Of a DNA stretch of 64,000 bases, positions 14,587 to 27,617 are shown piece by piece. Position 1 is the stretch's first letter; each line of letters opens with the position of its first letter. The position numbers were made by a program, and so were the translations under genes. The stretch is from Chitinophagales bacterium. GTDB taxonomy: Bacteria; Bacteroidota; Bacteroidia; Chitinophagales; JADIYW01. Location: NCBI GenBank assembly GCA_023957235.1, contig JAMLHI010000004.1, forward strand, positions 1 to 64,000, given 5' to 3'. The notes beneath the pieces are model-generated. The model worked only from the letters and a program-made list of their open reading frames with translations. It was not told where the DNA came from and ran no database searches.

Positions 14587-15117
14587 ATGTTGAAATCATT
14601 AATTGAAGTTGTTTTAAATAAACAAATAGGTATCGAGTCTGCTGCTTCATATAAATATTTGGCTTTTGCATCATGGTGTGATGTAGAGGGTTATTCAGGA
14701 GCTGCTAAATTTCTTTATGAGCATTCAGACGAGGAAAGAATGCACATGATGAAGTTGTTTAGATATATTAATGATAAAGGAGGGAAATCTATAGTTCCAC
14801 CTATAGAAAAGCCTCAACAAGATTTTAAATCTTTGAAAGATGTTTTTGAACATGCCTATAAAAGCGAAGTGGAAGTGACAGAGGCTATTCACCAAATTGC
14901 TGCATTGTGTCTTCAAGAAGCAGATTTTACTACTTATAATTTTATACAATGGTATATTAATGAACAATTAGAGGAAGAAAATTTATATAGAAGCATTTTG
15001 GATAAATTCAAATTAGTAGGAGAGGAGGGTAATAATCTCTATTTTATTGATGTGGAAATAGAAAAGCTATGTAAAGGTTCGACCAATCCTGCTACTGGGG
15101 CAGCTACAGAAGGTTAA
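14587..15117 (+). CDS. Ferritin (iron storage, non-haem)
   Basis: A 176-residue four-helix ferritin. Ferroxidase ligands are visible in the expected helices: Glu in 'GIESAASYKYLAFA', the 'EHSDEERMHMMKL' pair with Glu and His, and the later 'EEENLYR' region. There is no haem-binding Met pattern of bacterioferritin. It stores iron in the cytoplasm. It is followed after 28 bases by the 7TM sensor gene, but that gene's function is unrelated, so co-transcription would be incidental. Its own promoter is predicted directly upstream. Confidence 0.93.
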   Translation: MLKSLIEVVLNKQIGIESAASYKYLAFASWCDVEGYSGAAKFLYEHSDEERMHMMKLFRYINDKGGKSIVPPIEKPQQDFKSLKDVFEHAYKSEVEVTEAIHQIAALCLQEADFTTYNFIQWYINEQLEEENLYRSILDKFKLVGEEGNNLYFIDVEIEKLCKGSTNPATGAATEG

Positions 15118-15145: not shown

Positions 15146-17119
15146 GTGCCAATGTCAAAATTTTTAAAAATTTTCAGAATAGTCTTACTACAGATTTTAA
15201 TGCTGTATCAAGGATATCTTTTTTCTGAAAGTTTAGATACGCTTTATATTCATCACGATACAAAGGAAGTCCGATTAGGTAAATATATTCGCTATCTGAA
15301 TGATACAACCAATCAGATGAATCTGAAAGGTTTTCTGGAAGCAACATCCCCTACGATAGCCACTTTGCAAGCCAATTTGATGAATGAAGTGTTTTTGGGA
15401 TATGGCCAACATCAATATTGGTTTCAGTTCAATTTGAAAAACACTTTAGACGTACACAAGGTATTTTATCTGAATATTGACTATCCCAATTTGGATAATT
15501 TTATAGTTTATCAAAGATTTTTGATAAATGGAAAGGAACAAGTTGAACAGATAGCTGAAATGGGCGATAATTTTGTAAGGGGAAATAAAATTATTTCTCA
15601 TCGCAATTATATAGTACCTATTGATTTACAACCTAGAGAATCTAAAGGATTTATTTTCCAAATTAAGAAACAATGGGAACCAGTTAATTTTCCTATAATA
15701 CTTACAGATGAATATACCTTAGTCAGAAGGACTAATAATGATAATCTGTTTTTAGGTGTTTTTTATGGAGTCTATCTTTTATTTGCATTGACATTACTGT
15801 CTTTGTATTTTTTCACTAAGAACAGCTTTTTTTTCTATTATTTGCTATTGAATATCTTAGGCATAGCTAATTATCTCAGTGATACTGGAATAGGAATGCA
15901 GTATATATGGTATATGTCTCCCATTATACAGAAGGTTTTGCCTTATGTTGTTATTTTTGGAGTGATTTTAGTGCATATTACCTTTATTCGGATATTTTTC
16001 AAGACATCACTTCATCTAGTTAAGTTCAATCAGTTTTTATTAGGAGTTTTGTGGTTATTGGTATGTACACTATTGGCTCTGATTATATTCTCTCTGTTTT
16101 ATCCAACATCAAATCTTCCTTTTCAAATTGGTTATAATATAGTGAATGTATTATACTTAGGATATGGTATCTTAATTATTGCTTTATCTATTTCTACATT
16201 GATTCAGACCAGAAGAAAAGAAGTGTTGTGGGTAGTCATTGTAGTGCTTATACAATTTGCAAATTGGGTCATTCAGATTTTAATCAGAGGTAATGCTTTT
16301 ACTGTTTTTTTGCAAAAAATTAGTGTTTACGATTGGAATCTTTTTCCTAGCTTAATATCTACACCTCATATCAATATATTATTGACTGTATTTGAAATAT
16401 TTGTCGTAACAATTATTCTAGCATTGAATTTTTATGGATATATTAAAGATAATTCTTCTAGTCAGTATAAATTGATGCTACTGAGTCGGAATACTATTAA
16501 TGCTTATATAGAAGGGCAAGAAAATGAAAGATTGAAATTGACTGAACGCATCAAGGAGAGTATAGGTTTGGATATCAATATGTTAAAACTGCAAATGTTG
16601 GATGCTGTAAAGAACATATCTCATCCAGTTGTTAAATCTATACTTTTAGGTTTAAGTAATGATATACATTCTATTGAAAATGAAGTAGATAAAATATCTT
16701 CTGATTTTGTGCCTTCAAAATATGTGAATAAGAGTTTTTATGATTCTATTAAAAGTATTTTTAGCTTGCTGAGCTCTAGCAATATTCAAATAAAGTACCA
16801 ACTTGCTGTGCCATCACCTCAGGTAAATGATTTTTCTAAACTGAATATCTGCAGGATTTTACAGGAAATCACTGGTAATATTATGAAACATTCACAAGCC
16901 ACTCAAGTGCTAGTAAAAGTATATTATAATATTGATTTAATTGTTGAAGTACAAGATAATGGAATAGGATTTAATATCATTGATAATCAAGGAGGTATAG
17001 GATTGATAAATATTGAATCACGAGTCAAAGGGATGAATGGAAATGTGAGTATCCATAGCCTAGAGGGGAAGGGAACTCATATCATTATAAAAATACCAAT
17101 GAAGGAGCTAATATCATGA
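15146..17119 (+). CDS. 7TM-DISM sensor histidine-kinase-like protein lacking the phospho-acceptor His
   Basis: A 657-residue membrane sensor. The N-terminal half has a periplasmic DISMED2-type domain ('QYWFQFNLKN') after a signal segment, then seven membrane helices (about residues 200-430). The cytoplasmic part begins with 'IEGQENERLKL', which aligns with the HisKA_3 dimer helix, but the LHDG position reads IKES: the phospho-acceptor is Lys470 instead of His. The HATPase domain is intact: N-box 'EITGNIMKH' (Asn578), G1 'DNGIGF' (Asp604) and G2 'GGIGLINI'. It therefore looks able to bind ATP but not to accept phosphate itself. The next gene overlaps by four bases (ATGA) and shows the reverse defects. 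I chose the ATG at 15146; a downstream ATG three codons later is also possible. Confidence 0.85.
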   Translation: MPMSKFLKIFRIVLLQILMLYQGYLFSESLDTLYIHHDTKEVRLGKYIRYLNDTTNQMNLKGFLEATSPTIATLQANLMNEVFLGYGQHQYWFQFNLKNTLDVHKVFYLNIDYPNLDNFIVYQRFLINGKEQVEQIAEMGDNFVRGNKIISHRNYIVPIDLQPRESKGFIFQIKKQWEPVNFPIILTDEYTLVRRTNNDNLFLGVFYGVYLLFALTLLSLYFFTKNSFFFYYLLLNILGIANYLSDTGIGMQYIWYMSPIIQKVLPYVVIFGVILVHITFIRIFFKTSLHLVKFNQFLLGVLWLLVCTLLALIIFSLFYPTSNLPFQIGYNIVNVLYLGYGILIIALSISTLIQTRRKEVLWVVIVVLIQFANWVIQILIRGNAFTVFLQKISVYDWNLFPSLISTPHINILLTVFEIFVVTIILALNFYGYIKDNSSSQYKLMLLSRNTINAYIEGQENERLKLTERIKESIGLDINMLKLQMLDAVKNISHPVVKSILLGLSNDIHSIENEVDKISSDFVPSKYVNKSFYDSIKSIFSLLSSSNIQIKYQLAVPSPQVNDFSKLNICRILQEITGNIMKHSQATQVLVKVYYNIDLIVEVQDNGIGFNIIDNQGGIGLINIESRVKGMNGNVSIHSLEGKGTHIIIKIPMKELIS

Positions 17120-18972
17120 GGTGCTGGATACTCATATTATTATTTTGTATGTCTAATAAGGCTTTGGCCGCTGGTTTTTATTTAGACAAACACTTCATTG
17201 TTGCTGAAGGAAAGGATAATATAGAGTATTATTTATCTACTGACTCAATAAACAATCCTTATAACATTTACTTCCAAATGAAAAACACTGAGTATGAGCA
17301 GATTAAAAAATATTTGTTTTTTACTACTCAATCTCAGAAGTGGATGCTTTTTAATGTGTATAATTTAGAAGATAAGTCTTTTGATTTTATTGTTGAGATG
17401 AGCAATTTTGGCTTGAGTCAGATAGATTATTATATCTTTTACAAAGATGCTTTGATAGATAGTGGCTCAGTAGCAACACGCGGTGGTCTGAAAACAAGTG
17501 CTTATTACGACAGAAATATTGTCATTCCATATACTGCACAGCCCAAAGAAGAATATTCCTTCCTTGTAAGAATTTATACTAACGCACCCATTTTTGACCT
17601 TCCAGTAGTAGTATGGAATAAGAATAATAAATTTTCGATTAGTCAGGGTATTGAACTAGGTAGAGGTTTGCTTTATGGTGTTTTGTTGTTTTTTATTATT
17701 ATAACAGGTCTTGTTGTTTATTTGATTAGAGAAAAGAGTTATATCTATTACTGGTTGTATTTGTCTTCTGGTGGGATGTTGTTATTAATTAAGAGTGGTA
17801 TTCCTTTGGAAGTGTTCTGGCCTGGAAGAAGTTATTTGGATTTTGTCGTAAGAAATTTCTTCTTATATCTATACCTTGTTGTGACATTGAAATATCTAAA
17901 AGAATTCATTTCATCGAGAATTCAAAGTGGTTGGAATACGACATTGTTAGATATTTTTATTGTGTTAGGTATCATTTTGTGGGTGATATATCTTCCTTTT
18001 TCTTTTTTGAATGTGATGCTCCAAGATACTATGTTGATCGTCCAAATGGTATATATTATTTTAACGAGTTTATTGGTTTTGGTATTGATGATATGGTCAT
18101 TTCCCAAAGTAAAAGATAGAGTCGTTCTTGTAATATCTATCTTGTATTATTTTCTTTTTAGTGCATTTCTTTTCAATCCATTTATTGAATTTGGATTTTG
18201 GACTGGAAAATTAATTGGACACTTTTTGTTATATATTAGTGGATTTGTTATTAGTCTATTATTGATGATTGTTACATCTTTGAGAATGAAGGCGGTTATT
18301 CGCAGTCATCAGAAAAACAAATATGAATTGAGTGTATTGAATAAAAAATATAGCCACTCATTAATTGAAGGTCAAGAAAAGCAAAGAAGAATAGTAGCTG
18401 AAGAATTGCATGATGGAATTGGAGCGCATTTGGCTGCAGTGAAAATGAAAGTTTCTTCAATAAAAATGAAAGATTGTCAACCAGATGAGAAAAAGCTGAT
18501 ACAAAAAATCATTGACAATCTAGATGAAAGTACCCAAAATGTTAGAGAGTTATCTCATGAATTGATGCCTCCTACTTTAAATAGATATGGATTGGAAGCT
18601 GCAATAGTGGATTTGGTTCAGAAGTATCAAAATGATTATCCGATTCGACTTTCTGTCAGAACAAATTTAAAGTTGAATAAAATTAATTCTATTAGTGAGA
18701 TCATCTTATATAGACTATTGAATCAATTAATAGAAACACTTGTATATACTCATATACAAAAAGTTGAAATTAAGATTTTAATTTTTCCTTCAATTTCAAA
18801 TGCTACTATCCAAGTGAAATATTCAGGTGGAAGCCCGCTTTCTCAAAATGCAACCAATGAATATCTAGCTCTAAATTCACTTGTAAATCTGTTGCAAGGG
18901 AAAATTGAATATTTTATGAGTAGTATATGGGATGATGAGCTGAGTATAGAAATACCTGTGGAAATCTACTAA
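17116..18972 (+). CDS. 7TM-DISM histidine-kinase-like protein with intact His but degenerate ATPase domain
   Basis: A 618-residue paralogue of the upstream protein: signal segment, DISMED2-like periplasmic domain, seven membrane helices (about 185-400), then HisKA_3 with a canonical 'AEELHDGIG' (His432) and the X-region 'ELSHELMPPTL'. The HATPase region keeps its length and the N-terminal 'LYRLLNQLIE' helix, but the N-box Asn is missing, the G1 motif DxGxG reads 'YSGGSPL', and the G2 Gly-rich lid is lost ('LALNSLVNLL'). It should accept phosphate but not bind ATP normally. With the preceding gene it could form one functional kinase by trans-phosphorylation. No response regulator is adjacent. 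Confidence 0.85.
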   Translation: MRCWILILLFCMSNKALAAGFYLDKHFIVAEGKDNIEYYLSTDSINNPYNIYFQMKNTEYEQIKKYLFFTTQSQKWMLFNVYNLEDKSFDFIVEMSNFGLSQIDYYIFYKDALIDSGSVATRGGLKTSAYYDRNIVIPYTAQPKEEYSFLVRIYTNAPIFDLPVVVWNKNNKFSISQGIELGRGLLYGVLLFFIIITGLVVYLIREKSYIYYWLYLSSGGMLLLIKSGIPLEVFWPGRSYLDFVVRNFFLYLYLVVTLKYLKEFISSRIQSGWNTTLLDIFIVLGIILWVIYLPFSFLNVMLQDTMLIVQMVYIILTSLLVLVLMIWSFPKVKDRVVLVISILYYFLFSAFLFNPFIEFGFWTGKLIGHFLLYISGFVISLLLMIVTSLRMKAVIRSHQKNKYELSVLNKKYSHSLIEGQEKQRRIVAEELHDGIGAHLAAVKMKVSSIKMKDCQPDEKKLIQKIIDNLDESTQNVRELSHELMPPTLNRYGLEAAIVDLVQKYQNDYPIRLSVRTNLKLNKINSISEIILYRLLNQLIETLVYTHIQKVEIKILIFPSISNATIQVKYSGGSPLSQNATNEYLALNSLVNLLQGKIEYFMSSIWDDELSIEIPVEIY

Positions 18973-19449: not shown

Positions 19450-20706
19450 ATGAAGAAAAAAATTATGTTGATGTGTTGTTTGTTATTAAGTATAGCAACG
19501 CATGCTCAAGCAGAGCTTATCGATTCTATTGCCTTGGAAAATAGAATTACAGATATTGAAGAAGCAATAAAAGAAAATAGAAACTTTAAAGTTTCAGGTT
19601 ATATCCAAACTCAGTTTCAATTTGGGGAGCAATTTTCTGCTCTAAAAGTTGGAGCTTCAAATGATAGTAAAAGTAAAAATATTTCTAGAGTAGGTATCAG
19701 AAGAGGTCGCTTGAAATTTACTTATGAAAAAGGAATAGTTGCAGGAGTATTCCAAATGGATATGACTGAAAAAGGAATCGGGGTAAAAGATGCATATCTG
19801 AACATCAAAGATCCTTGGCTAAAGTCTATATCATTAAAAGCGGGCGTTTTTGACAGACCTTTTGGATATGAAATTAGCTATTCATCTTCGCAAAGAGAAG
19901 CTCCTGAACGCTCAACAATTTTCCAAACTTTATTTCCAGAAGAAAGAGATTTAGGCTTGATGCTAACCTTACAAGCTCCGAAAACATCAATATGGAGTAT
20001 GCTCAAATTAGAAGCTGGAATCTTTGCAGGGAATGGTATCAAAATGGAAACAGATAATAGAAAAGACTTCATTGGGCACTTATCCTTAAATCATACAATT
20101 AAAGATTTTCTAAAAATAGGTGGTGGAATATCTTATTATAATGGAGGTGTCTATCAAGGTTCTAAAAATATCTATACGATGCAAGGCAATTCATTTGTTT
20201 TGAATAATGACTCCACTAATATTGGGAAATATGCAAAGCGAGAGTACATAGGTTTTGATATGCAAATCAATGCCATAACAAAAGTTGGTACAACTAAGTT
20301 AGTGGCAGAATATTTAATGGGCATTCAGCCAGGAACAAATAAAGATAGCAAAAGCCCCAATGCTTCAACGCTACCAACGTCGGATACTTATATTAGAAAG
20401 TTTAATGGTGGTTATATAATGCTAACACAAGATTTTGGGAAAGCACCATTAACTGGTGTTTTAAAATATGATTGGTATAATCCTAACAAGAATGTTTCAA
20501 AAGATAATATTGGTTTAAATAATACTAATAAAGGAGATATAGATAATCATACGATAGGTGTTGGTTTATTATGGAAAGCAACTTCTAGTATTCGGGTTAT
20601 AGCATTCTATGATATTGTTAGAAATGAAATCACTAAAAATATTGCAGACTATTCTCAAAATAGGAAAGACAATGTCTTTACACTTCGATTCCAATATAAA
20701 TTCTAA
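19450..20706 (+). CDS. Phosphate-selective porin O/P family protein
   Basis: A 418-residue outer membrane porin with a signal peptide ending near 'ATHAQAE', a short coiled-coil-like segment ('LENRITDIEEAIKE'), then a beta-barrel beginning 'FKVSGYIQTQFQFG' and ending in an aromatic residue ('LRFQYKF'). This is the OprO/OprP fold of phosphate- or polyphosphate-selective porins. It is the first gene of the phosphate-uptake block and has its own PHO-box-like site, so induction under phosphate limitation is expected. It lets phosphate reach the PstS protein encoded next. Confidence 0.9.
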   Translation: MKKKIMLMCCLLLSIATHAQAELIDSIALENRITDIEEAIKENRNFKVSGYIQTQFQFGEQFSALKVGASNDSKSKNISRVGIRRGRLKFTYEKGIVAGVFQMDMTEKGIGVKDAYLNIKDPWLKSISLKAGVFDRPFGYEISYSSSQREAPERSTIFQTLFPEERDLGLMLTLQAPKTSIWSMLKLEAGIFAGNGIKMETDNRKDFIGHLSLNHTIKDFLKIGGGISYYNGGVYQGSKNIYTMQGNSFVLNNDSTNIGKYAKREYIGFDMQINAITKVGTTKLVAEYLMGIQPGTNKDSKSPNASTLPTSDTYIRKFNGGYIMLTQDFGKAPLTGVLKYDWYNPNKNVSKDNIGLNNTNKGDIDNHTIGVGLLWKATSSIRVIAFYDIVRNEITKNIADYSQNRKDNVFTLRFQYKF

Positions 20707-20719
20707 ACCTTAACCAGAT

Positions 20720-20765
20720 TGTAACAAAATTGCAAATAGACAGTAACAATTGGTATTGAAATTTG
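20720..20765 (+). promoter_or_regulatory. PHO-box-like repeats and -7 element upstream of pstS
   Basis: TGTAACA at 20720 and AGTAACA at 20742 are 22 bases apart, with a weaker repeat (TGCAAAT) midway at 20731. A GAAATTTG -7-like element ends at 20765; TTTG begins 20 bases after the last repeat, exactly as in the site before the porin gene. This suggests separate PhoB-dependent promoters for the porin and for pstSCAB. Confidence 0.68.
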
Positions 20766-20810
20766 CACTGAAAATAAAACAAATCATTTAAAAATTAAAT
20801 TAGAAAAAAG

Positions 20811-21626
20811 ATGAAAAAAACAATTATTTTAACATTTTCCTTATTCTGTTTGGCATTAAACATAAAGGCACAAAAAATCAAAGGATCAGATACAGTATTG
20901 CCATTATCACAAGAAGCGGCTGAAAATTATAAGAAGAAAAATCCAACAACTACCATCTCTGTAACTGGAGGAGGAAGTGGTGTAGGAATCTCAGCCTTAA
21001 TTAGTGGAACAACAGAGATTGCACAAGCATCAAGAAAAATAAAATTTGATGAGAAGTTAAAAATTCAAGAATCTGGCAATACCTTAAAAGAAGTAATTGT
21101 TGCTTATGATGCATTAAGTGTTATTGTAAATCCTTCAAACAAAGTTTCTAAATTAACTAGAGAGCAGTTAGAAGGGATTTTTACAGGAAAAATTACTAAT
21201 TGGAAAGAAGTAGGAGGTGATGATTTAAAAATTGTTCCTTATTCTAGAGAAACATCTTCTGGAACTTATGAGTTTTTTAAAGAAAGTGTTCTAAAAAATA
21301 AAAATTACAAGACTGGAATTATGAGTTTGCCAGCTACTGGTGCAATCATGCAATCTATTAGTCAAACTAAAGGAGCAATTGGATATGTTGGCTTTGCATA
21401 TCTAAATACAAATGTCAAAGCAATTAATATCTCTTACGATAAAGGAAAAACTTATGTTGTACCTGATATCACTAATGTAAAGAATAAAACTTATCCTATT
21501 GTAAGACCATTATACTATTACTATTTGACTAAAAACACTAATAAAGTAAAAGGATTTGTGGACTATATTCTATCTCCTGAAGGTCAAAAGATTGTTTCTA
21601 ATGTTGGATATATCACAGTGAAATAG
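20811..21626 (+). CDS. pstS: Periplasmic phosphate-binding protein
   Basis: A 271-residue substrate-binding protein with signal peptide ('LFCLALNIKAQ'). The phosphate-binding motifs are clear: 'KGSDTVLPLSQ', 'TGGGSGVGI', 'VNPSNKVSKLTREQLEGIF' with 'TNWKEVGG', and 'SRETSSGTYEFF'. It delivers phosphate to PstCA in the inner membrane. It heads the pstSCAB-phoU operon, 23 bases before pstC. A PHO-box-like site lies 45 bases upstream of the start. Confidence 0.95.
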   Translation: MKKTIILTFSLFCLALNIKAQKIKGSDTVLPLSQEAAENYKKKNPTTTISVTGGGSGVGISALISGTTEIAQASRKIKFDEKLKIQESGNTLKEVIVAYDALSVIVNPSNKVSKLTREQLEGIFTGKITNWKEVGGDDLKIVPYSRETSSGTYEFFKESVLKNKNYKTGIMSLPATGAIMQSISQTKGAIGYVGFAYLNTNVKAINISYDKGKTYVVPDITNVKNKTYPIVRPLYYYYLTKNTNKVKGFVDYILSPEGQKIVSNVGYITVK

Positions 21627-21649
21627 TAAGAAAATTCATTATAAAAAAC

Positions 21650-22858
21650 ATGAAGTCTGCTATGAAAATATTAGAAAGGCTATTAGAAGGAATGTTTAAA
21701 ATGAGTAGTGCAATCACTAGTATTGTTATACTACTCATTATAATATTCTTATTTAAAGAAGGTTTCGGATTATTTCGCTCACCAGTTGTGGAAAAGGGTT
21801 ATGGCCTTTATATTAATTCTAAAAACCCTGTTACTGATTTAAATCCAACGCAGATAAAACAAATATTTGATGGAGAAATAGAAAACTGGAATGAAATAGG
21901 AGGGAAAGACGAGTCTATCTATCTTTTAAGGTTTGATGAAATCTTTTCAATTTATTCTGATGAAGAACTAGGTGAGAATTACCAATTTTTACCTCAAAAA
22001 CTAAACAATATAATTTCTGAAAACTCTAATATTATTGCATTTTTTCCTAAAAAATTTATGCCTGAAATTTCAAGCCCGACTAAAGAAATTGCAAATAAAA
22101 ATATTGGAATTCCAGATTTTATTTATGGAAAAGAATGGTTGCCTACAACAACGCCTTCTCCATTATTTGGAATAATTCCGCTTGTACTTGGTACATTATT
22201 AGTTAGTTTTTTAGCCATTCTTATAGCACTACCATTCGGATTAGGTGTAGCTATTTACTTATCCGAAATTGCCAACAATAAAGTGAGAGGAATGATTAGA
22301 CCTGCTATTGAGTTATTAGCAGGCATTCCATCGGTTGTTTATGGATTCTTTGGATTAGTAATAATTGTACCTATTGTTCAGAAAATGGGCAATATAAGTG
22401 CAGGTGAAACAGCATTTACTGGTAGTCTGATATTAGCAATTATGGCATTGCCAACGATAATTTCCATCTCTGAAGATGCGTTAAGAAATACGCCACTAGC
22501 TTTAAGAGAATCTAGTTATGCATTAGGTGCTACTCAATGGCAAACCATCTATAAGGTGGTTATTCCTTTCGCAAGTTCTGGCATATCTGCGGCGATTATT
22601 TTAGGAATTGGTAGAGCAATAGGAGAAACAATGGCTGTGTTAATGGTTACGGGTAATGGTGCGGTTATTCCACATTCTATTTTTGAATCTGTCCGAACAA
22701 TTCCTGCAACTATTGCTGCTGAATTAGGAGAAGCTCCGATGGGTGGAACACATTATCAAGCATTATTTTTATTAGGGTGCGTATTGTTTTTATTTACACT
22801 TGTACTCAGTATCATTTCAGAGATTATTTCCAATAAACAAACTTCTAAATCAGCGTGA
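21650..22858 (+). CDS. pstC: Phosphate ABC transporter permease PstC with a PstS-like periplasmic insert
   Basis: A 402-residue permease, about 100 residues longer than typical PstC. After the first membrane helix (about 17-38) there is a periplasmic insert of about 120 residues that aligns with part of PstS: 'YGLYINSKNPVTDLNPTQI' followed by 'FDGEIENWNEIGG' mirrors the 'LTREQLEGIF...NWKEVGG' stretch of the neighbouring PstS. The remaining five helices and the coupling motif 'EDALRNTPLALRESSYALGA' are normal. It forms the channel with PstA. The insert may dock PstS or act as a local phosphate trap; that is inference. Confidence 0.93.
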   Translation: MKSAMKILERLLEGMFKMSSAITSIVILLIIIFLFKEGFGLFRSPVVEKGYGLYINSKNPVTDLNPTQIKQIFDGEIENWNEIGGKDESIYLLRFDEIFSIYSDEELGENYQFLPQKLNNIISENSNIIAFFPKKFMPEISSPTKEIANKNIGIPDFIYGKEWLPTTTPSPLFGIIPLVLGTLLVSFLAILIALPFGLGVAIYLSEIANNKVRGMIRPAIELLAGIPSVVYGFFGLVIIVPIVQKMGNISAGETAFTGSLILAIMALPTIISISEDALRNTPLALRESSYALGATQWQTIYKVVIPFASSGISAAIILGIGRAIGETMAVLMVTGNGAVIPHSIFESVRTIPATIAAELGEAPMGGTHYQALFLLGCVLFLFTLVLSIISEIISNKQTSKSA

Positions 22859-23712
22859 TGTTTTCAAAAAATATTCAACAAAAAATAGCCTTTCATATTT
22901 TCAGACTACTTAGTTTCAGTATTCTAGGTGTCTTGGTTTGGATACTAGGTTTTATTATATATAATGGAATCCAAGTCATTAACTGGGAGTTTATTACAGC
23001 TTTCCCAAAAGAAGGAATGACCGAAGGAGGAATTTTTCCTGCAATCATTGGAACAATTTATTTAGTAATAGGAAGTATGATGTTTGCAGTTCCACTTGGA
23101 ATAATGTCAGCCATTTATATCAGTGAATATGCAAGTAATCAAAAGTGGGTGAAATTCATTCGTATAATGACTAATAATCTAGCAAGTATTCCATCAATTG
23201 TTTTTGGATTGTTCGGAATGGCATTATTTGTACATACGTTTGGATTTGGCGATTCAATCCTTGCTGGTTCTTTAACGCTTGGAATATTAATAATACCTTT
23301 AGTAATTCGCACAACCGAAGAGGCTTTAAAAGCGGTCCCAGAGTCTTATCGATTAGGTAGTATTGCATTAGGTGCTACTAAATTTCAAACCATAAAAAAT
23401 GTAGTATTTCCAATTGCTTTTCCAAATATTATGACTGGAATAATTCTTTCTGTAGGCAGAGTATCTGGGGAAACTGCTCCTATATTATTTACAGTAGCAG
23501 CTTATTTCCTGCCCAAGCTTCCTCAAAGTATTTTTGACCAAGCAATGGCACTTCCTTACCATTTGTATGTTATTGCAACTAGCGGTACAGATATAGAAGC
23601 CTCAAAGCCTATTGCTTATGGAACTGCATTTGTATTAATTTCTATCGTATTAATAATAAATCTCTTAGCGGGTTGGATAAGAAGATATTTTGAAAAACAA
23701 AACCCTAAATAA
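22858..23712 (+). CDS. pstA: Phosphate ABC transporter permease PstA
   Basis: A 284-residue permease with six membrane helices and the EAA-type coupling loop '[23 protein letters not shown]' that contacts PstB. I start it at the ATG at 22858, which overlaps the pstC stop as TGATG; a GTG one codon earlier is possible. Length is normal, with no extra domain, in contrast to its partner PstC. It pairs with PstC to form the transmembrane channel for phosphate. Confidence 0.94.
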
Positions 23713-23723
23713 TATTCAGAAAA

Positions 23724-24473
23724 ATGATGATTGAAGCAAAAAATATAAACTTCTACTATGGTAACTTTCATGCACTGAAAGGTATTAATATTGCTATTCC
23801 AGCAAATACAGTAACTGCATTAATTGGTCCTTCGGGCTGTGGCAAGTCCACTTTCTTAAGATTATTTAATCGAATGAATGATACTATAGAGAATGCTAAA
23901 TTAACTGGAGAATGTTTGGTGAATGGGCAAAATATTTATGATAAAACGGTACAAGTTGATGCATTAAGGAAGAATGTTGGAATGGTATTCCAAAAACCCA
24001 ACCCATTTCCTAAATCTATTTATGAAAATGTTGCTTATGGCTTAAAAGTAAATGGTGTATCAGACAAGAAGTATATTGCAGAGCGTGTGGAGCAATCACT
24101 TGTGGCTGCTGCATTATGGGATGAAGTCAAGGATAAACTTCATCAATCGGCATTTGCATTGTCTGGTGGACAGCAGCAAAGACTTTGTATTGCCAGAGCA
24201 TTAGCTATTTCACCATCTGTATTGCTTATGGACGAACCAGCATCAGCTTTAGATCCAATATCTACTTCAAAAATAGAAGAATTAATTCATGGTTTGAAAG
24301 AAAAATATACCATTGTAATAGTTACACACAATATGCAACAAGCTGCTAGAGTAAGTGATAAAACAGGTTTTTTTATGTATGGAGAATTGATTGAATACAG
24401 CGATACAAAGAAGATGTTTTTAAATCCAGAAAATATTCAAACACAAAACTATATCACAGGAAGATTTGGTTAA
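23724..24473 (+). CDS. pstB: Phosphate ABC transporter ATP-binding protein
   Basis: A 249-residue ABC ATPase with Walker A 'GPSGCGKST' (35-43), Q-loop '[12 protein letters not shown]' typical of PstB, signature 'LSGGQQQRL' (from 146), Walker B '[12 protein letters not shown]' and the H-loop 'IVTHNMQQA'. It powers phosphate import through PstCA. It starts 12 bases after pstA and is followed 19 bases later by phoU. All catalytic residues are present. Confidence 0.97.
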
Positions 24474-24491
24474 ATTTTAAAAAGATAAATT

Positions 24492-25166
24492 ATGAAACAT
24501 ACAGAACTAGAAATTCAGGAGCTAAAAATCCAAGTAAAACAAATGTGGAATTTAGTTATTGCTCAGTTAAGTAAAACTAAAATAGCATTGTTGGAAAACA
24601 ATACAGCACTTGCATTAGAAGTAATTAGTCAAGAAAAAAGAGTGAATGCTTACGAGCTTAAAATTGAAAGCGATTGCGAAAATTATATAGCATTATATAG
24701 CCCTGTTGCAGTTGATTTGAGATTAGCCCTTTCATTAATTAAGGTTAGCAATACTTTAGAACGAATAGGTGATTTTGCAGAAGGTATTGCAAGACATACT
24801 ATTTCTCAAGAATGCAAAACCATTGATGTTAAAATAATTGAAGATTTAGGCATTGAAAAAATGATTGATATTGTTTTAGAAATGCTCCTTGACGGTTACA
24901 TTGCGTTTGAAACAGAGAACACAAAATTAACTGAAAAAATTATGAGTCTTGATATTCAAGTAGATGAGTTGTATAAAAATGGCTTTTATATCTTAGCTGA
25001 ATATATTAAGGAAAATCCATTAGAAACAATGTGTGCTTTGAGACTTATTATCATACTTAGAAAAGTAGAAAGAATTGGAGATCATTGTAATAATATTATT
25101 GAAGATATTGTTTTCTATGTAGATGCTGAAGTTTTAAAACATAATAATAAAACAAGTTTGAAATAG
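24492..25166 (+). CDS. phoU: Phosphate signalling complex protein PhoU
   Basis: A 224-residue helical protein with the two PhoU repeats, each containing an acidic metal-binding motif: 'VSNTLERIGDFAEGIA' in the first and 'LRKVERIGDHCNNI' in the second. PhoU links PstB activity to the sensor kinase and represses the phosphate regulon when phosphate is plentiful. Position between pstB and the response-regulator/kinase pair fits this role exactly. Length is typical. Confidence 0.95.
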   Translation: MKHTELEIQELKIQVKQMWNLVIAQLSKTKIALLENNTALALEVISQEKRVNAYELKIESDCENYIALYSPVAVDLRLALSLIKVSNTLERIGDFAEGIARHTISQECKTIDVKIIEDLGIEKMIDIVLEMLLDGYIAFETENTKLTEKIMSLDIQVDELYKNGFYILAEYIKENPLETMCALRLIIILRKVERIGDHCNNIIEDIVFYVDAEVLKHNNKTSLK

Positions 25167-25215
25167 TTAATTCTTAGTGATATTGATTAAATTTGTTCAA
25201 TAAGACAACCCCAAA

Positions 25216-25908
25216 ATGTCAATAAAAATATTAATTGTAGATGATGATGTAAGTATTTGTGAAATATTAGAATTTAATTTAAAGAGTGAAGGTTATACTA
25301 TTGAAGTTGCTCATTCAGCAGGAGAAGCATTAGAAAAATTGAATGCTGATTATCATCTTATTTTATTAGATATTATGATGGGAGGGATGTCTGGTTATAA
25401 GATGGCAGAAAAGGTACAGACCTCTAAAAATCGGATCCCAATTATTTTTATTACTGCTAAAGATACAGAAAATGATATGCTTACTGGTTTTTCTGTTGGA
25501 GCTGATGACTATATTTCTAAACCATTCTCAATAAAAGAAGTAATTGCTAGAATCAAGGCTATATTAAAAAGAACAAATCAAAATACTAAAGCAACTTCAA
25601 TCAATTCAAATACTCTAGAATTAAATGATTTTATTATTGATTTTGATGCTAAATGTTTAATTATTAAGGACAATAAAATAAATCTAACAAAAACTGAATT
25701 TGATATTTTATCAAAATTAATAGAAACCCCTAATCGAATATTCTCTCGTCAAGAAATTATTGATAGTATTTGGGGTGAAGACATATATGTAACTGAGCGT
25801 ACAGTAGATGTACATATTACAAGATTAAGAAAAAAACTAGGAGAATATGGATCTGCAATTACTAATCGAATTGGTTTTGGATATCGATTTGATATAACTA
25901 ACTTATGA
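25216..25908 (+). CDS. phoB: OmpR/PhoB-family response regulator, probably PhoB
   Basis: A 230-residue regulator with a receiver domain (acidic pocket Asp9-Asp11, phospho-acceptor Asp52 in 'LLDIMM', Thr in 'FITAKD', Lys in 'YISKPFS') and a winged-helix DNA-binding domain of the OmpR type ('TERTVDVHITRLRKKLG'). It follows phoU by 49 bases and overlaps the kinase gene by four bases (ATGA). It is the best candidate to bind the 11-base repeats before the porin and pstS genes. The name phoB is from context; no experiment is implied. Confidence 0.9.
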   Translation: MSIKILIVDDDVSICEILEFNLKSEGYTIEVAHSAGEALEKLNADYHLILLDIMMGGMSGYKMAEKVQTSKNRIPIIFITAKDTENDMLTGFSVGADDYISKPFSIKEVIARIKAILKRTNQNTKATSINSNTLELNDFIIDFDAKCLIIKDNKINLTKTEFDILSKLIETPNRIFSRQEIIDSIWGEDIYVTERTVDVHITRLRKKLGEYGSAITNRIGFGYRFDITNL

Positions 25909-27617
25909 AACTAAATTTTAAAAAGCGCTTATTTCTTTACTTTACATTTGTTTTTTCTATTTCGATTATTGGTGTAACTATTTTTGAACGAAATAAAGAA
26001 AGAGAACAAAAAATAGAAACCTTAGAAGGGAAATTAGATGTTTATACTTCTACCATTAGTTCTGTTCTATCAAAAAATGTAACAATAAATATTTCTAATT
26101 TAGACAGCTTAGTTACCCTGTTTCCACCAGAACTTAGAGTGAGTCTTATTGATAAAAAAGGTAAGGTTGTTTTTGACAATTCTATTAAAAATTTAAATCA
26201 ATTAGAGAATCATTCCCAACGACCTGAAATTCTAGCATTAAAAACAAACAGTAAAGGCACTGATATTCGCAACTCTGCATCTAAGCATCAACCTTATCTA
26301 TATTATGCCAAAGACAATGGAATATATTTTATTCGTGTAGCCTTACCTTATAATATTAATACTAAAAATTTTCTAAAACCTGATAATTCATTTGTTTATT
26401 TCATTTTAGTTATCTATTTATCTGTACTTTTTTTAATCAATAGTATTATTAGAAAATTTGGCAAATCTGTAACTCAATTGCGTGATTTAGCAATAAATAC
26501 AAAAGTAGTGGATTCAAATTTTCATTTTTCAGATAATGAATTAGATGAAATTGGTAAAAAACTTACCGAAAATTATCTGTTATTAGAAAAATCAAAGAAT
26601 GAGATAAACATTGAAAAAGAAAAATTATTGCAACATATCCATAATTCTAAAGAAGGTATTTGTTTTTTTAATCCTCAAATGGAAGTAGAATTTTATAATG
26701 GACATTTTATTCAATATCTACATTTAATAACAGATTCTGACGAGGGTAATCCTAATGTAATTTTTACAGATAAAGCATTTGAAAGGCTACAGCTTTTCTT
26801 AAAGGATTTAAGCGCTAATTTCTTAGATTATAAGATTTCTAAACAAGGTAAAATATTCAATCTTCGTTTAGTCTTTTTTGAAAACAAAGGATTTGAAATC
26901 ATCTTGAATGACATTACACTTCAAGAAAAAAATCGAATTTTAAAACAAGAAATGACAGGCAATATTGCTCATGAACTTAGAACGCCTGTAACTGGAATAA
27001 GAGGATATTTAGAAACAGTCCTTTCTCAACCTTTGGATGAAAAAAAACAACTTTATTTTATCGAAAAAGCTTTTAATCAGACAAAAGCACTATCAGAACT
27101 TATTCAAGATATGAGTTTAATTTCAAAAATTGAAGAAGCAAGTCACACATTTCCTATGCAATCAATTCTGCTTAAAAAATTTATTGAAAATATAAGAGAA
27201 GAATATTCCATACAACTAGCCCAAAAAGAGATGCAATTTACTATCAATATTTCTGAAAATTGTGAAATCAAAGGCAACCCTAATTTATTAAATTCTATTT
27301 TTAAAAACTTAATTGATAATGCGCTTAGATATGCTGGAAATAATATGAGCATAGTTGTTAATTTATACAATCAAGACGCTGATTTTTGTTACTTCTCATT
27401 CTATGATACTGGAAAAGGTATTGAAGATGAAAAGCATCTTTCTAGGTTATTTGAAAGATTTTATAGAGTAAATGAAGGTAGATCTAGAGATCTGGGTGGT
27501 TCAGGCTTAGGATTGTCTATAGTAAAAAATGCTATACAGATTCACGGCGGAACTATATATGCTAAAAATAGAAAAGGTGGAGGTTTAGAATTTCTTTTTC
27601 ATTTAAAAAGAGTTTAA
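25905..27617 (+). CDS. phoR: PhoR-like sensor histidine kinase
   Basis: A 570-residue kinase: an N-terminal helix (about 10-25), a periplasmic domain of about 130 residues, a second helix ('FVYFILVIYLSVLFLINSII', about 160-182), a linker with a PAS-like segment, then HisKA with 'NIAHELRTPVTG' (His356), N-box 'NLIDNALRYA', G1 'DTGKGI', F-box 'LFERFYRV' and G2 'GGSGLGLSIV'. All catalytic parts are intact. It is translationally coupled to the regulator gene and lies at the end of the phosphate block, so control by PstSCAB-PhoU is expected. A sizeable periplasmic domain is larger than in E. coli PhoR. Confidence 0.9.
   Translation: MKLNFKKRLFLYFTFVFSISIIGVTIFERNKEREQKIETLEGKLDVYTSTISSVLSKNVTINISNLDSLVTLFPPELRVSLIDKKGKVVFDNSIKNLNQLENHSQRPEILALKTNSKGTDIRNSASKHQPYLYYAKDNGIYFIRVALPYNINTKNFLKPDNSFVYFILVIYLSVLFLINSIIRKFGKSVTQLRDLAINTKVVDSNFHFSDNELDEIGKKLTENYLLLEKSKNEINIEKEKLLQHIHNSKEGICFFNPQMEVEFYNGHFIQYLHLITDSDEGNPNVIFTDKAFERLQLFLKDLSANFLDYKISKQGKIFNLRLVFFENKGFEIILNDITLQEKNRILKQEMTGNIAHELRTPVTGIRGYLETVLSQPLDEKKQLYFIEKAFNQTKALSELIQDMSLISKIEEASHTFPMQSILLKKFIENIREEYSIQLAQKEMQFTINISENCEIKGNPNLLNSIFKNLIDNALRYAGNNMSIVVNLYNQDADFCYFSFYDTGKGIEDEKHLSRLFERFYRVNEGRSRDLGGSGLGLSIVKNAIQIHGGTIYAKNRKGGGLEFLFHLKRV

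Follow-up and report, generated by a model that had tools for sequence, protein, structure and literature searches.

The catalytic and phospho-accepting roles of a membrane histidine kinase appear to be divided between two adjacent genes of a Chitinophagales bacterium, here called A and B. Conserved complementary defects in the two proteins, the intact motifs of their single-gene relatives and a second, probably independent pair together give this division strong support. We propose that A and B are probably the subunits of a split kinase, derived from a complete one by duplication and complementary degeneration and operating by trans-phosphorylation in an A:B heterodimer. Coordinates without a contig or locus name refer to the forward strand of the window, the whole 64,000-nucleotide stretch of contig JAMLHI010000004.1 that was analysed, and both genes lie on that strand.

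Gene A (15146-17119, 657 aa) encodes the presumed ATP-binding half, a 7TMR-DISM sensor kinase. It opens with GTG, and an in-frame ATG at 15152 may be the true start. An extracellular 7TMR-DISMED2 sensor domain (aa 45-186, 15278-15703; Pfam PF07696, E 2.7e-17) is followed by the 7TMR-DISM seven-helix membrane domain (aa 200-392, 15743-16321; PF07695, E 9.5e-10). The HATPase_c domain (aa 568-653, 16847-17104; PF02518, E 3.8e-10) has all its motifs intact: the N-box N578 lies within it, the G1 box DNGIGF (604-609) at 16955-16972 and the G2 box GIG (617-619) at 16994-17002. In alignments the position of the phospho-acceptor His is occupied by Lys470 (16553-16555), and Pfam finds no HisKA_3 match in A, so the protein lacks a recognisable HisKA_3 dimerisation and phospho-acceptor (DHp) domain with its His.

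Gene B (17116-18972, 618 aa, ATG start) encodes the presumed phospho-acceptor half on the same plan, with a 7TMR-DISMED2 sensor domain (aa 65-167, 17308-17616; PF07696, E 6.1e-7) and a 7TMR-DISM membrane domain (aa 183-383, 17662-18264; PF07695, E 1.2e-11). It alone of the two has a HisKA_3 domain (aa 424-488, 18385-18579; PF07730, E 2.8e-9) with the phospho-acceptor, His432 in ELHDG (18409-18411). The remainder of the protein (18583-18972) is a degenerate ATPase-like, or pseudo-CA, domain, identified from its motifs, an AlphaFold model and a Foldseek comparison with DesK. Its N-box Asn is gone, YSGGSPL (18820-18840) stands in place of DxGxG, the glycine lid is missing and Pfam finds no HATPase_c match in B. 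These residue-level defects are as the preliminary description reported them from the letters alone, and the Pfam assignments mirror them, with HATPase_c but not HisKA_3 in A and the reverse in B. The overlap of the genes by four bases (ATGA, 17116-17119) and their common 7TM-DISM layout hold as well, both receptor domains being above the Pfam cut-offs in both proteins. Neither chain carries the N, G1 and G2 boxes of HATPase_c together with the His. A and B are the sole two 7TMR-DISM_7TM proteins in their 3.0-Mb genome, and B is one of just three HisKA_3 proteins there.

Structure prediction fits these assignments, both models being single chains of moderate confidence. The model of A (mean pLDDT 71) contains the expected CA elements, and in that of B (mean pLDDT 73) the helices and strands of the C-terminal region alternate as in a CA domain (pLDDT about 80), and the place of the lid is taken by a short loop. 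Foldseek matched the B model to DesK structures over about 205-230 columns. In profile searches against the PDB, A matched the DesK and VraS structures, and the B profile, its lost CA region included, matched no structure.

A search of 100 relatives recovered the pair from 12 genomes, all of one Chitinophagales family and spanning three genera, with identity falling to about 26-30%. When the B alignment was run, in a pattern-limited scan, against 84,980 species, the long matches with appreciable identity all came from 11 MAGs of the same group. The genes are adjacent in 11 of the 12 genomes, with A upstream and a four-base overlap as the usual arrangement, the overlap being TTGA or ATGA in most pairs besides this one, and on these grounds A and B are probably co-translated.

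The defects are conserved with the genes. Every B orthologue retains the phospho-acceptor His within an invariant ELHDG and every one lacks the N-box Asn (12/12 for each); DxGxG and the lid are lost across the set, in which one sequence ends at a contig end after the N-box. Among the A orthologues, N578, D604, G606, G608, G617 and G619 are invariant (12/12), and the residues in the acceptor position are, in order, K, K, H, D, D, G, T, E, N, E, N, D. The conserved trait of A is the absence of His (11/12) and not the presence of Lys470, and a role for this lysine as a substitute acceptor is rejected, the column being unconserved. As a control, all 31 single-gene 7TM-DISM kinases aligned keep both the His and the N-box Asn, and 29 of them DxGxG; the rows in both sets are related, so that these counts are not independent trials. 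By sequence, ATP site and phospho-acceptor lie on two different proteins in 11 of the 12 genomes of the family. The preliminary description had suggested aligning the pair with intact kinases and asking whether the paired defects recur in orthologues: the alignment bears out the contrast, and the recurrence is complete for B and for the ATP site of A, with a single exception to the loss of the His.

That exception is a congener, G002, whose A protein keeps the His (KIHDEI) along with all ATP motifs and is encoded on a different contig from B. An orthologue with every motif restored had been named beforehand as evidence against the pairing, and G002 A, unlinked from its B, is such a protein in one species. 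The division of roles accordingly stands, but it would not be obligate in every member of the family. The CA motifs of B are lost in all genomes with the pair, G002 included, while G002 A still has its His; the most economical reading would be that the loss of the ATP site in B came first and that the His of A, once redundant, was then lost several times. The His of G002 A may instead have been regained. If it was retained, as the B-first order supposes, G002 is a possible intermediate that suggests the order of events.

A second instance of the same division occurs in another family. In genomes G026 and G085, tandem 7TM-DISM genes encode a first protein with D or Q at the acceptor position and an intact ATP site and a second with LHDEAG and a degraded CA domain, and Pfam divides HATPase_c and HisKA_3 between them in the same manner. 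In trees of the full proteins and of the sensor and membrane columns only, A and B of the source family each form a supported group, and in both trees the A and B proteins of the second family join each other (99/97). An AU test on the sensor and membrane columns rejected a grouping of all A-types (p=0.004), and with it a single origin of both pairs; a clade of the source family's own A and B was not rejected (p 0.32). The rejection of a common A-type ancestry indicates that the split probably arose twice, with two caveats, possible gene conversion and a biased composition of the sequences from the second family. Separately, genome G023 (L135:3605-7462) has tandem TPR-type HisKA_3 kinases beside a NarL regulator; the first has LNNG for LHDG with an intact CA domain and ATP site, and its neighbour is a complete kinase. 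This tandem is a one-sided version of the arrangement and a possible intermediate of kinase splitting.

Loss of catalytic motifs in each gene might also mark one or both as decaying duplicates without function. We regard this as highly improbable. Contig ends aside, neither reading frame is interrupted in any of the 12 genomes, and His432 with its surroundings in B and the ATP site in A are invariant across proteins of about 26-30% identity. Between congeners dN is 0.13 for A and 0.09 for B against a dS of 2 or more (saturated, hence rough); with dN so far below dS, both genes are under purifying selection and are not pseudogenes.

An unlikely, though more serious, alternative is that B is phosphorylated by another kinase or never, and that A, itself binding ATP, allosterically regulates either B or a different kinase, as a pseudokinase in the manner of DivL or RetS. 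Pseudokinases or partner kinases that modulate kinases are known (DivL, RetS/GacS, ChrS), and the drifting His column deprives A of a phospho-acceptor role in 11 of 12 genomes. The strict invariance of the catalytic motifs of A is nevertheless what would be expected of an active ATPase and not of a scaffold, and the losses, being complementary and not one-sided in two families, fit mutual dependence. As to another kinase, the two further HisKA_3 kinases of the genome each adjoin a NarL regulator of their own. It is less probable still that the pair is facultative, with A binding B and homodimers serving other roles, B for example as a phosphotransfer module or phosphatase. G002, where A has every kinase motif and is unlinked from B, favours such an arrangement; in the other 11 genomes, however, the active site is incomplete in each protein taken singly. 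In addition, B has Ala or Ile at the position of the Gln of HisKA_3 phosphatases, which speaks against a phosphatase, although most single-gene relatives are also without this Gln and its loss is unsupported as a trait specific to B.

For the split kinase we propose the following scheme. An ordinary 7TM-DISM/HisKA_3 kinase would have been duplicated and the copies would have degenerated in complementary fashion. The DHp helices of A and B would form the dimer contact, the ATP bound by the catalytic domain of A would serve to phosphorylate His432 of B in trans, and from B the phosphate would go to a NarL-type response regulator whose gene lies elsewhere. As the sensor domains differ, the A:B heterodimer could integrate two inputs. 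This mechanism requires phosphorylation in trans across the dimer; cis-acting histidine kinases exist, and DesK is reported to act in trans. A more general form of the proposal, on which we are evenly divided, is that at least twice among Chitinophagales sensor kinases a tandem duplicate may have become, through degeneration and complementation, an obligate heterodimeric split kinase, the ATP site of B being lost first and the His of A then drifting, so that the two sensors, both retained, would gate a distant orphan regulator with two inputs.

Genome context, to which the preliminary description had looked for the regulator, yielded none beside the pair in the family's loci and a candidate elsewhere in the genome. 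The small ORF upstream of A in other genera was considered as a receiver and rejected, since its sequence suggests a protein of MmcQ/YjbR type instead. Since the other HisKA_3 kinases have adjacent regulators, orphan NarL regulators are left for the pair. For one of these, RR1 (genome contig C13:138014-138667), 10 of the 11 other genomes with the pair contain an orthologue at 63-88% identity, and relatives without the pair contain none at comparable identity (best 47%). A second conserved orphan, RR2 (C10 near 175779), is likewise present in 10 of the 11, and all 16 comparisons made place RR1 nearer than RR2 to the regulators that adjoin 7TM-DISM kinases. Its want of a close orthologue where the pair is absent and this nearness make RR1 the preferred candidate receiver, a choice we favour somewhat over its being another regulator; its co-occurrence with the pair is confounded by common descent, and RR2 is conserved as well. 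RR2 (L210:4756-5403, in G000) has an atypical receiver in which SD replaces the usual acidic pair, and adjoins what is by eye a SpoIIE/PP2C-like phosphatase gene. The second family has a NarL regulator next to its B gene, convergent with it at a distance of 21-26 bp.

The normal form of a histidine kinase is a homodimer; obligate heterodimers in nature are, to our knowledge, rare (CheA3/CheA4, FasB/FasC). The latter, from group A Streptococcus, offer the nearest experimental precedent: their genes encode membrane sensor kinases side by side, one supplying the ATPase domain and the other the needed His (FasC H246), the kinase domain of FasC is dispensable, and two-hybrid data show hetero- and not homo-association (PMC12675982). 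They differ from A and B in that they are of six-TM type and share the operon with FasA, their regulator, and in that FasB retains candidate His residues and FasC a predicted, if dispensable, HATPase. In A and B both defects are visible in the sequence, the sensors are of 7TM-DISM type, the DHp is HisKA_3 and the operon holds no regulator. CheA3/CheA4 of Rhodobacter sphaeroides (PMC3591291), the precedent first put forward, also divide catalytic and phospho-accepting functions between two complexed proteins and are a fair functional parallel, though FasB/FasC (PMC12675982) are closer. They are CheA-type proteins that lack whole domains and carry the His on a P1 domain, whereas neither A nor B has lost a domain, the two share one membrane-sensor layout, and it is their active sites that are degraded. 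Together with split EnvZ, CheA3/CheA4 establish that kinase chemistry is divisible between proteins. DesK and VraS share the HisKA_3 type of the DHp and CA of A and of the DHp of B, but are complete single-gene kinases. In Corynebacterium glutamicum a CA-less ChrS stands beside a complete paralogue, HrrS, and the intact proteins heterodimerise; that case was laboratory-evolved, does not need the ChrS His and has a complete kinase as partner (PMC9491836).

What seems new is complementary degeneration in 7TM-DISM HisKA_3 kinases that can be read from the sequences, is conserved and is apparently recurrent. It makes subfunctionalisation by complementary degeneration of tandem duplicates, a textbook idea, directly testable in a signalling enzyme, and, for the difference in behaviour that modelling predicts between split and ordinary kinases, it offers a naturally occurring system.

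The surroundings of the pair vary. A ferritin gene (14587-15117) ends 28 bp ahead of A and is directly upstream in the congener G001 too; given this position in both species, the two kinase genes may share a transcript with ferritin there. Directly after the pair (19450-27617) come genes for a Porin_O_P porin, a phosphate-type binding protein, transporter components, PhoU and PhoB-like and PhoR-like proteins. What comes after the pair in G001 is instead a set of orthologues of the window from 29346 onward, so this neighbourhood is unconserved, and phosphate sensing was rejected as a conserved link; the pst/phoU/phoBR operon, moreover, carries its own PhoB/PhoR. At five loci from other genera (L039, L040, L041, L042 and L045) a conserved gene of 113-119 aa, MmcQ/YjbR-like by eye, precedes A, and beyond it lies a divergent gene of 570-590 aa that is AceK-like by eye.
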